A stretch of 64,000 bases of DNA from Alphaproteobacteria bacterium (lineage in GTDB: Bacteria > Pseudomonadota > Alphaproteobacteria > GCA-2731375), in NCBI GenBank assembly GCA_016776605.1, contig JADHTB010000004.1, forward strand, positions 62,001 through 126,000, read 5' to 3'. A model generated the notes under the pieces. It was given only the letters and a program-made list of their open reading frames with translations, was not told where the DNA came from and did no database searches. The position numbers and the translations under genes were made by a program. Below, piece by piece: positions 25,669-28,626 of the stretch. Each line of letters starts with the position of its first letter. Position 1 is the first letter of the stretch.

Positions 25669-26760
25669 ATGCAATTCATAAACACCCAATATAGCCCCTC
25701 GACGGCCCGGTTCCAGTGCCGAAACCTGATAATCGGCCTCACCCTGATTCTGTTCCTGCTGCTGGGAGGGCCGATTTCGCCCAGGGCCGCCCAGGCGGAA
25801 GAAGCAGTAACATCAGCGGTGATCTTCATGTATCACCGCTTTGGCGATGATCGCTATCCCACCACCAGTGTCACGATCAAACAATTTGAAACGCATTTGG
25901 CCGAGATTGCGACGGGCCATTATAACGTCATCTCCCTGCGCGATATTGTGCTTGCTTTTCGCCGCAAGGAAAAGCTGCCAGATCGCACCATCGCGTTGAG
26001 TATTGATGATGCCTTTCTCTCCATGCATGATCAGGCTTGGCCGTTGTTGGCCAAGGCGGGGCTGCCCTTCACTTTATTCGTTGCCACCAATGCCATCGAC
26101 GCCAAGCGGTCCGACTATATGTCCTGGGCGCAATTGCGGGACGTGATGGCGGGCGGGGCGACCATTGGCAGCCAGACCGCCAGCCACCCCCATCTTCCCG
26201 ACGTCACACAGAAGCGCCTGGAGCGTGAACTGGCCCGCTCCAACGAACGGTTTCGCGCCGAACTGGGTGTCGTGCCGGATTTACTGGCCTATCCCTATGG
26301 CGAGTTTGGCCTGCGGGAAAAAAAGGCGGCACGCGAAGGGGGCTTCATCGCCGCATTTGGGCAACATTCCGGCGTGGCCCACAGCGGTGAAGATATTTAT
26401 GGTCTGCCGCGATTTGCCATGAACGAGCGTTTTGGCACGGTGGAGCGGTTTCGCATGGCGGGTAACGGCCTGCCCCTGCCGGTCAGCGATGTGCTGCCCG
26501 CCGACACCGTCATACGGGGTAACAATCCGCCGTCCTTTGGTTTTACCGTGGCGGAAGGTATCGGGAGCCTCAAAACCCTTGCCTGTTTTGCCTCCCATCA
26601 GCCCAACGCGGCGCAACTGGAGCGTCTCGGCAGCCGGCGTTTCGAAGTCCGACTGAACAAGCCCTTCGGCACCGGCCGGGGCCGGATCAATTGCACCCTG
26701 AGGAGCAAAGACAATCGTTGGCGCTGGTTCGGGACACAATTCTATATCCCCCGACGCTAG
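25669..26760 (+). CDS. Secreted polysaccharide deacetylase-family protein
   Basis: A 363-residue exported protein with a long signal peptide (hydrophobic core about 20-35, cleavage near ARAAQA|EE). The NodB-like domain begins FMYHRFGDDRYP. Motif 1, normally TFDDG, is SIDDA; motif 2, normally HTxxHP, is QTASHPHL, so one of the usual metal-binding His residues is Gln. LLAYPYGEFG corresponds to motif 3. It likely acts on an envelope or exported glycan, but the altered motifs leave activity uncertain. Its TAG stop begins a repeat relic. Confidence 0.85.
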   Translation: MQFINTQYSPSTARFQCRNLIIGLTLILFLLLGGPISPRAAQAEEAVTSAVIFMYHRFGDDRYPTTSVTIKQFETHLAEIATGHYNVISLRDIVLAFRRKEKLPDRTIALSIDDAFLSMHDQAWPLLAKAGLPFTLFVATNAIDAKRSDYMSWAQLRDVMAGGATIGSQTASHPHLPDVTQKRLERELARSNERFRAELGVVPDLLAYPYGEFGLREKKAAREGGFIAAFGQHSGVAHSGEDIYGLPRFAMNERFGTVERFRMAGNGLPLPVSDVLPADTVIRGNNPPSFGFTVAEGIGSLKTLACFASHQPNAAQLERLGSRRFEVRLNKPFGTGRGRINCTLRSKDNRWRWFGTQFYIPRR

Positions 26761-26808: not shown

Positions 26809-26911
26809 TAGAGAATTTTTATTCTAAAAATGCTCAGATCTTTAGAATTAGAGCAATTATTCCAATCACTTAGAATCGCTTTGCGATTCTCATTAATTCG
26901 GCATAGCTCTA
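26809..26911 (-). repeat. Two-hairpin intergenic repeat, copy D (type 1)
   Basis: Complete 103-bp minus-oriented copy between convergent genes. Inner stem AGAATCGC/GCGATTCT with an AAA loop on the element strand; two GANTC sites. Its hairpin-1 end supplies the TAG stop of the Bax-like gene (26911-26909). Hairpin 2 is slightly diverged (GAGAATTTTTATTC). Confidence 0.82.
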
Positions 26912-28024
26912 GGACGGCAGGGGCTCGGAATTTTCGGCAAGCAGGCGTGCATTGTCAAAATCGTGTAGACGGTTGGCCCGCATAATTACCCGAATGGTAT
27001 CGATGTAATCATGACCCCGTTCGGAATAGCTCCGCATGGTGCCGATCAACGCATAACCATCCAATGGTCGCCCATTGCCACGAAATGCCGCCCGTTTGCC
27101 GCGAAAATTCTCGTAGGCTAAATGAGTGTTCAAGTTCAAGATGTAGGAGCGCACGGAGGTGTACAGGTTGTTAAACGCCTTGACCTCGTAACGCTGGTTC
27201 GGCGCACGTTCCCGCGGCACCAAACCGCCCCCTTTGCGAAATGTCCGCTGCCCAAAAACCGCATTTCCCAGGCGCGCGAAGCGCGAGGTGCCCCAACCGG
27301 ATTCCTCGGCCCCCTGGGCCAAGGCGAGTGAAGCCGGGATCACATCGACGCGTCGCTGCAACTCGTTAAGATTACCGCCTGGAACGCCATATTGCTTCGC
27401 CAGATTTTTTAGGAAACCGCGGTCGCTTACCGACAGATCGCTCAACGCCCGCCCGCCCTGGATAAGCGAAAGCATGCGCTGGCGGGTAGAGCGCACTTCA
27501 TTATTCGCGCGCAGGACGAGGGGCAGAACGGTCTTAATAAAAATATCCTTGCGCTTCTTGGCATCGCGCAAGCCGGCCATATGTGTCGGGAACCGGCCCA
27601 AATAAACCGGCAACACGGCGGCCTTGCCCTGACGCAGGGCGGCCAGAGGCAGATCCAACAGCTCCTGCGCGCTGAAACGCCCGCGCCGCCGCCAATCAAA
27701 CCGTTGTCCCGGCACAGTCATCAGACTAGCCAATTGCAAGGGCTGAACAAGCATTGATGCCGCCGTCGTTGGCTTAAAGGTGGGGACCGTGAATAATTTT
27801 GTAACCGCCGGCGACGGGGATTTGGTCGTCGATTTGGTCGTCACCGCGATGTCCGACAGTGTGGTGTCCGCCAGTGCGGCTGCCTCTGTGGTCGCGCCCG
27901 GGCTTTGGCCAGGCGCCATCCGGGGGGCAGCCTGAGAGGTGATAGCCAGGAACAGCCCCGCGCAGGTGACCGTGACCGCGGCAGCCATGACATCTTGTCT
28001 ATAAAACTTCATCGTCAACGCCAT
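26909..28024 (-). CDS. Exported Bax-like glucosaminidase
   Basis: About 371 residues, starting MALTMKFYRQ (28024) or MKFYRQ (28012), with a signal peptide (VTVTCAGLFLAITSQA). A Thr/Ala/Pro-rich linker follows. The C-terminal half (about 200-350) matches the Bax/FlgJ-type glucosaminidase domain: VIPASLALAQGAEESGWGTS with the catalytic Glu, RLGNAVFGQ, and ALIGTMRSYSERGHDYID. It should cut peptidoglycan glycan strands in the periplasm. Upstream lies a complex noncoding region with tandem repeats and a CtrA-like box. The frame runs further upstream to 28165, but that part is low-complexity Arg/Ser. Confidence 0.85.
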   Translation of the reverse strand: MALTMKFYRQDVMAAAVTVTCAGLFLAITSQAAPRMAPGQSPGATTEAAALADTTLSDIAVTTKSTTKSPSPAVTKLFTVPTFKPTTAASMLVQPLQLASLMTVPGQRFDWRRRGRFSAQELLDLPLAALRQGKAAVLPVYLGRFPTHMAGLRDAKKRKDIFIKTVLPLVLRANNEVRSTRQRMLSLIQGGRALSDLSVSDRGFLKNLAKQYGVPGGNLNELQRRVDVIPASLALAQGAEESGWGTSRFARLGNAVFGQRTFRKGGGLVPRERAPNQRYEVKAFNNLYTSVRSYILNLNTHLAYENFRGKRAAFRGNGRPLDGYALIGTMRSYSERGHDYIDTIRVIMRANRLHDFDNARLLAENSEPLPS

Positions 28025-28115
28025 TCGGATAAGTGGTTGCCCACCGATCCCCCTACACCCTGCCGTTTTACCGGCTTCTAGTTTTTTGCTCCGACCCCTG
28101 CCCGCCTCAAGGTCA

Positions 28116-28202
28116 GATCGATTTCGTCTGGATCGATTTCGTCTGGATCGCTTCGTCTCGATCACTTCGTCTCGATCACTTCGTCTTGATCATTTCCGTC
28201 TT
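28116..28202. repeat. Six-copy 14-15-bp tandem array
   Basis: Units start at 28116, 28131, 28146, 28160, 28174 and 28188 and follow GATC(G/A)(A)TTTCGTCT or GATCACTTCGTCT. The first two are identical. Every unit starts with GATC, and one carries the end of the CtrA-like box. It lies upstream of the Bax-like gene and outside any supported CDS. Confidence 0.85.
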
Positions 28203-28233
28203 AACGATTTATTAACCCGCCGTTTGCTATTAT
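28201..28233 (+). promoter_or_regulatory. CtrA-type box with a possible promoter
   Basis: TTAACGATTTATTAAC (28201-28216) fits the CtrA consensus TTAA-N7-TTAAC exactly. A TATTAT (28228-28233) lies downstream so that the box covers the expected -35 position (28205-28210, 17-base spacer), the arrangement of CtrA-activated promoters in Caulobacter. It could drive the plus-strand transcript proposed here, or, being near-palindromic, act on the Bax-like gene about 180 bases away. Confidence 0.45.
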
Positions 28234-28239
28234 CGAGTT

Positions 28240-28441
28240 CGCTACCAGGAGAGTTTCCGAAATTTGCCTGGTAACTCTTTTTTTTACCGCCCGGCTCTGC
28301 TTGGCCAGGTTCGGTCAATTGGACAAAACTCAATTGAATTTTCTGGTATTTTTTCTGGAATTTCGACGCCTGGGCGAACAGTACTCAGACCAAAACGCGC
28401 GCCGCTTTGCGGCTACTGACCGGCCATTCTGGCCGGTTTTT
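28240..28441 (+). ncRNA. Candidate orphan small RNA
   Basis: No plus-strand gene lies just upstream, yet a promoter-like site (above) and two terminator-like structures occur on this strand. TACCAGG (28243-28249) pairs with CCTGGTA (28267-28273), and an overlapping alternative, AGAGTT with AACTCT, leads straight into eight Ts (28278-28285). Then come GCCGC-TTT-GCGGC (28401-28413) and a strong terminator. No convincing ORF fills the interval. It matches no RNA family I recognise. The adjoining 28442-28626 holds no feature I can support. Confidence 0.4.
28419..28441 (+). terminator. Strong intrinsic terminator without an upstream gene
   Basis: ACCGGCC (28419-28425), loop ATTCT, GGCCGGT (28431-28437), continuing into five Ts to 28441. 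The T-run is only on the plus strand, where the nearest upstream CDS ends about 1.7 kb away. This argues for a separate short transcript. Confidence 0.75.
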
Positions 28442-28626
28442 CGCTTCTTCAGATAAAAAAGTTACCAGAAAATTAACTGAAAATCAACCCAGGAGATTCT
28501 AATCCTCCTTGCTACGGGCGCTACAGGCGCTCTAGCTACAGACCGGCTTGCAACCGATGCCAATCCGGAACATTCATCGCAGACCAGCCTTTGGTGCTTA
28601 CGACCATGATTCGGGCTAGAAGTATA

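Follow-up and report, generated by a model that had tools for sequence, protein, structure and literature searches.

In the alphaproteobacterial genome analyzed here (4.6 Mb in 44 contigs), the segment upstream of a gene for a bax-like glucosaminidase is predicted to contain two facing promoters with overlapping transcripts. The reading that we favor, and to which we give an even chance, is that a CtrA-driven cis-antisense RNA directed against the glucosaminidase leader lowers or retimes the hydrolase. Comparison with relatives supports the two promoter-like blocks, the sense direction of the predicted structured RNA, and a box of the CtrA type in one of the promoters. The segment lies in a window of 64 kb, which is the whole stretch of DNA that was analyzed, and was compared across nine orthologous loci from the 11 available genomes of the same genus, which are marine Rhodospirillaceae-type MAGs labelled Rhodospirillaceae or Alphaproteobacteria.

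The adjacent gene (26909–28012, minus strand) encodes a protein with a Glucosaminidase domain. Its top NCBIfam match was "protein bax", at 112 bits against a cut-off of 193; the protein is related to this family but is not an equivalog. An ortholog was found in 9 of the 11 genomes, and the segment was present upstream of the gene in all nine. The conserved block at 28200–28490 adjoined the glucosaminidase gene even where the neighbor on the far side had changed, this being nifU in three of the nine genomes and other genes in the rest. Because the far neighbor varies and the glucosaminidase linkage is constant, the segment belongs with the glucosaminidase gene rather than with nifU or ccrM, and the domain matches together with the linkage make this gene the probable target. 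A previous sequence-only reading of this DNA had rightly named a peptidoglycan hydrolase gene and a CcrM-type methyltransferase gene as neighbors, but the nearness of ccrM is incidental, since only the glucosaminidase gene stays linked in the relatives. The stretch without an upstream plus-strand gene, which had been put at about 1.7 kb, is about 1.44 kb long, as a plus-strand polysaccharide deacetylase gene ends at 26760. A literature search for CtrA together with a Bax-type glucosaminidase returned nothing relevant.

As had been proposed from the sequence, TTAACGATTTATTAAC at 28201–28216 (plus strand) is an exact match to TTAA-N7-TTAAC, and TATTAT is present at 28228–28233, within the –10 element GCTATTAT (28226–28233). 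When the start of transcription is placed at ~28240, six to seven bases past TATTAT, the 5′ base of the box (28201) falls at –39, so that the box covers the –35 position, with the conserved GCTATnnT downstream. The full CtrA motif of Caulobacter, TTAA-N7-TTAA, is described as activating when its 5′ base is at –39 (PMC4287350), the same placement as that predicted here. TTAA-N7-TTAAC occurred once in the 64-kb window against 0.11 expected by chance, and the box followed by a correctly spaced TATNNT gave no match in 100 shuffles. No textbook sigma-70 promoter was called in a scan of 801 bases. The box was exact in six of the nine orthologous loci and carried one mismatch in the other three; in two sister species (G004 and G005) its second TTAA was TTTA or TTCA. 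The –10 element (GCTAT, GTTAT or GTAAT-like) followed 10–11 bp after the box in all nine loci. The alignment consensus over 28200–28234 read TTAAYGnTTTGTTAAC and then GCTATnnT, with conservation dropping directly past the –10. These data support a predicted plus-strand promoter with a CtrA-type box, conserved as a unit across the genus. RNAalifold further identified a dyad, AACGAT...GCCGTT, extending from the box into the flank downstream of it (28203–28225, assigned to neither strand), the arms of which change together between species (AACGGT/ACCGTT, AACAGT/ACTGTT and CACG/CGTG). The dyad may be the operator of a second regulator or a leader hairpin; it was not present at the ctrA and divK boxes described below. 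On the sense-downstream side of the box, a 14-bp tandem repeat, TTCGTCTCGATCAC, occupied 28123–28201 in 5.5 copies and was absent from the aligned relatives.

CtrA governs envelope and division genes at their promoters and, in Caulobacter, acts also through some non-coding RNAs. The present genome encodes CtrA, with a match of 426.8 bits to the NCBIfam CtrA equivalog (cut-off, 350) and 76% identity over 227 residues to a Caulobacter CtrA query sequence. The sequence TTAACGNTNNNTTAAC occurred five times in the genome, as compared with once for the reversed control. Near-identical boxes, TTAACGGTTCGTTAAC and TTAACGCTTCGTTAAC, precede ctrA and divK-pleD; the ctrA copy lies 65 bp before the gene, and the other copy stands before the divK-like/pleD pair. 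The ctrA box was found at the same position as TTAATGRTTCATTAAC in G005, G007 and G010. Because near-identical boxes precede these cell-cycle genes and the –39 position is activating, the sequence at 28201–28216 is a credible, if predicted, CtrA box. Full-length ctrA was recovered from only 3 of the 11 genus MAGs, and in a fourth the gene was split between two contigs. No CtrA-like gene was found in G002, G003, G004 and G009, and only a divergent or partial one in G001, G006 and G008. The gene is very conserved, and its absence from several relatives' MAGs may well reflect assembly loss. The CtrA-like genes of G006, G008 and G001 (L122, L123 and L135, respectively) had a conserved receiver domain and a degenerate or truncated DNA-binding half. 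An exact TTAACGATTTGTTAAC box was also seen at L091:1501–1517, where the flanking ORFs had no identity.

The RNA predicted from the promoter geometry would run from 28240 to 28441 on the plus strand, both ends being estimates. It had been described as an orphan small RNA, a term that does not suit a predicted transcript that would be antisense, over its whole length, to the conserved 5′ leader of the glucosaminidase gene next to it. At its far end, a terminator-like hairpin, GACCGGCC-ATTCT-GGCCGGTT, with a T tail was present at 28418–28443 as claimed, and a terminator scan of 801 bases returned a plus-strand match at 28418–28438, where 1.0 ± 0.8 such sites are expected by chance. A conserved role in terminating plus-strand transcription is nevertheless unsupported, since the pattern of covariation points to an RNA from the minus strand and no locus but this one has a canonical U-tract. 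A switch between RNAs of ~45 and ~200 nt had also been put forward, based on two mutually exclusive early hairpins. Both can fold in this genome, TACCAGG/CCTGGTA giving the lowest-energy structure for nucleotides 1–52 (–13.0 kcal/mol) and AGAGTT/AACTCT being a real alternative, and the run of eight Ts after the latter is present at 28278–28285. The switch itself is unsupported, as these elements are lost beyond the closest relative: only G002 keeps AGAGTT/AACTCT, and neither TACCAGG/CCTGGTA nor the T8 run is kept.

In the alignment, conservation was high at 28200–28234 and at ~28398–28490 and lower between them, and RNAalifold placed two hairpins at 28401–28437 in addition to the box dyad. On the minus strand, hairpin I (28401–28413) reads GCCGC-AAA-GCGGC, as indicated by covariation, and hairpin II (28419–28437), the supposed terminator, reads ACCGGCC-AGAAU-GGCCGGU, as indicated by covariation and single-sequence folding. 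Since a G-U pair corresponds to an A-C mismatch when the opposite strand is read, the direction of wobble pairs across species can be used to assign a helix to a strand. Hairpins I and II are short helices with 12 pairs in all, seven of them in hairpin II when its optional outermost pair is not counted. Across these pairs in the nine loci, the minus strand showed 10 G-U cells and no A-C cells. On the tree of the adjacent protein, this amounted to seven parsimony events to none in favor of minus over plus, and the share of paired cells was 96.3% for the minus strand and 87.0% for the plus. In hairpin II, the optional outermost pair runs in the opposite direction, being a plus-strand G-T (minus-strand A-C) in six loci, although three of these have a plus-strand A-C mismatch as the pair on which it would stack. 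In single-sequence folding, the plus-strand hairpin II of G004 and G006 collapsed (–15.8 against –21.1 and –12.7 against –19.8 kcal/mol, respectively), and both species retained the hairpin on the minus strand. Because the hairpin covariation and the G-U direction favor the minus strand, we assign the structured RNA to the 5′ leader of the glucosaminidase mRNA. This case shows that an intergenic "terminator" can be assigned to its RNA strand by the direction of wobble across species.

A minus-strand promoter-like block, TTGATT/TTGCCT followed by a TAA-containing block, was conserved at 28487–28460 in all nine loci. In this genome, the predicted sense promoter of the glucosaminidase gene (28460–28487) comprises a –35 TTGATT (28487–28482) and a –10 region TGGTAACT (28467–28460), the latter a weak match to known consensus sequences, and would start transcription at ~28452. 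The strand assignment of hairpins I and II, together with a hairpin near the start codon described below, supports a predicted leader of ~440 nt starting near that position. Conservation stopped at 28490 although the genes beyond it differ, and the alignment of the nine loci showed none past 28490 or just before 28200; the minus-strand promoter explains the conserved 28460–28490 stretch, which a plus-strand small RNA ending at 28441 does not. A minus-strand –10 beside the CtrA box was sought by eye in the alignments and none was seen. GANTC (CcrM/GcrA) sites lay within 40 bp of the sense –35 (window, 28460–28530) in seven of the nine loci at varying positions, possibly by chance.

A model search for the 5′ leader element (R3; 28397–28452, minus strand), consisting of GAAGAAG and hairpins II and I, found one copy per genome in 9 of the 11 genus genomes and no match in 105 genomes of other genera. 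Because R3 matches nothing outside the genus, the class-wide matches obtained with a different model, R1 (E, 0.001–0.01), were taken as chance. Farther along the leader, an unpaired block with the sense consensus GRCGTCAAAAnnTCnGAnGAACYGCCAAAT was conserved at 28344–28375. No Rfam 15 family, riboswitches included, matched at gathering thresholds, and loose E-values gave only a chance match (E, 2.5); a tRNA/tmRNA scan was likewise negative. No small ORF or peptide was conserved across the loci on either strand: a plus-strand "RRFAAT" peptide resemblance in some loci arises from the conserved hairpin, and an upstream ORF (MGNxLSEWR-stop and similar) ending just before the glucosaminidase start was found in four of the nine loci and was out of frame or fused elsewhere.

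Next to the start codon, a further hairpin, GGATCGGTGG-GCAA-CCACTTATCC (28027–28050, minus strand), separates the glucosaminidase start from a GGGGG Shine-Dalgarno-like run, a position that places it in the sense leader. It covaried strongly: 93.8% of its cells were paired, both sides had changed in five of the pairs, and there were 12 G-U cells (11 events) on the sense strand against none. A second genus of this family gave a weak match (L062; E, 0.0022). GNRA tetraloops cap the hairpin in several species, and when the hairpin is open, at least ~30 nt separate the GGGGG run from the AUG. This region is possibly a structured ribosome-binding site.

Three other explanations were weighed. The nearest rival, which we hold to be appreciably less probable than the antisense reading, is that only the leader matters: the CtrA box would be a site within transcribed DNA at which CtrA blocks or represses the sense transcript, and the plus strand would give rise to no functional RNA. 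The sense leader is indeed the better supported of the two transcripts, most relatives have no good plus-strand terminator, and in Caulobacter there are positions at which CtrA acts as a repressor (PMC4287350). A pure roadblock, however, needs no –10 element, whereas in all nine loci GCTATnnT follows the box on its plus side at a near-fixed distance, and conservation ends there. We regard it as improbable, though less so than the last alternative, that the promoter drives an orphan, CtrA-activated ~200-nt plus-strand RNA that ends at 28418–28443 and acts in trans on distant mRNAs, like CcnA or EcpR1, which are precedents for cell-cycle RNAs of this type. Conservation of the plus-strand promoter, the canonical T tail of hairpin II in this genome and the good fold of the plus strand here (z = –3.1) would agree with it. 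The covariation nevertheless favors the opposite strand by seven events to none, the middle of the predicted RNA is poorly conserved, the conserved region extends past the supposed terminator to 28490, and the word "orphan" cannot apply to an RNA whose opposite strand is the neighboring gene's leader.

The last alternative, that the plus-strand promoter is real but unimportant, as in pervasive antisense initiation, and that only the leader matters, seems to us very unlikely. Antisense initiation is common, with ~16% of the coding genes of Caulobacter having at least one antisense start (PMC4287350), but the CtrA box and –10 element have been kept across species in which the adjacent protein is only ~54–70% identical to the copy in this genome.

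According to the antisense reading, transcription from the minus-strand promoter at 28460–28487 would produce a glucosaminidase mRNA with a leader of ~440 nt, which would carry two hairpins at its 5′ end and a last one between the Shine-Dalgarno-like run and the start codon. The CtrA-box promoter (28201–28233, plus strand) would be situated inside this leader and aimed at the sense promoter, yielding an RNA of ~200 nt with full complementarity to the leader's initial ~210 nt. At high levels of CtrA~P, this antisense RNA, along with the convergent polymerase or bound CtrA itself, would result in less, or retimed, cell-wall hydrolase. CtrA-activated antisense transcription of this kind would be the simplest mechanism; possible routes include pairing with the leader hairpins, interference by the convergent polymerase and a CtrA roadblock, among which the comparative data do not choose. 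We infer the existence of both transcripts, the end of the antisense RNA near 28441 and the sign of the effect. More tentatively, the locus may represent a genus-wide device that places one peptidoglycan hydrolase under CtrA control by way of an antisense RNA arising from the gene's own structured leader, the hairpins serving as pairing or stability elements. If this is true, it would provide a direct RNA link from cell-cycle state to wall cleavage, and a conserved CtrA promoter directed against the leader of one hydrolase would offer a simple case in which the cell-cycle circuit of uncultured marine relatives times the cleavage of peptidoglycan by antisense transcription.

Structured 5′ leaders of envelope-protein mRNAs are known from the ompA-type 5′ stem-loops. 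The glucosaminidase leader resembles these in having hairpins at the very 5′ end of a long leader, with unrelated sequence and a stabilizing role that is putative here. Among CtrA-linked RNAs, CcnA of C. crescentus uses a CCCC loop to act in trans on the leaders of ctrA and gcrA (PMC8959179), whereas the present RNA is predicted to be antisense to its neighbor; no sequence relationship between the two was found, on the basis of Rfam scans without a match. EcpR1 of Sinorhizobium meliloti is likewise an alphaproteobacterial RNA tied to the cell cycle, but is trans-acting and stress-induced and has a conserved GC-rich loop (PMC4414408); here too, the sequence comparison consisted of the Rfam scans. 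The closest likeness is to the cell-cycle antisense transcripts of C. crescentus, the promoters of which contain sites for core cell-cycle factors, with the full CtrA motif at –39 (PMC4287350). The arrangement described here differs from these in that the predicted antisense start lies within a structured 5′ leader between facing promoters and is conserved across a genus. CtrA-linked antisense starts are thus already known in Caulobacter (PMC4287350), and we propose, with moderate confidence, that the present locus is a further predicted case.
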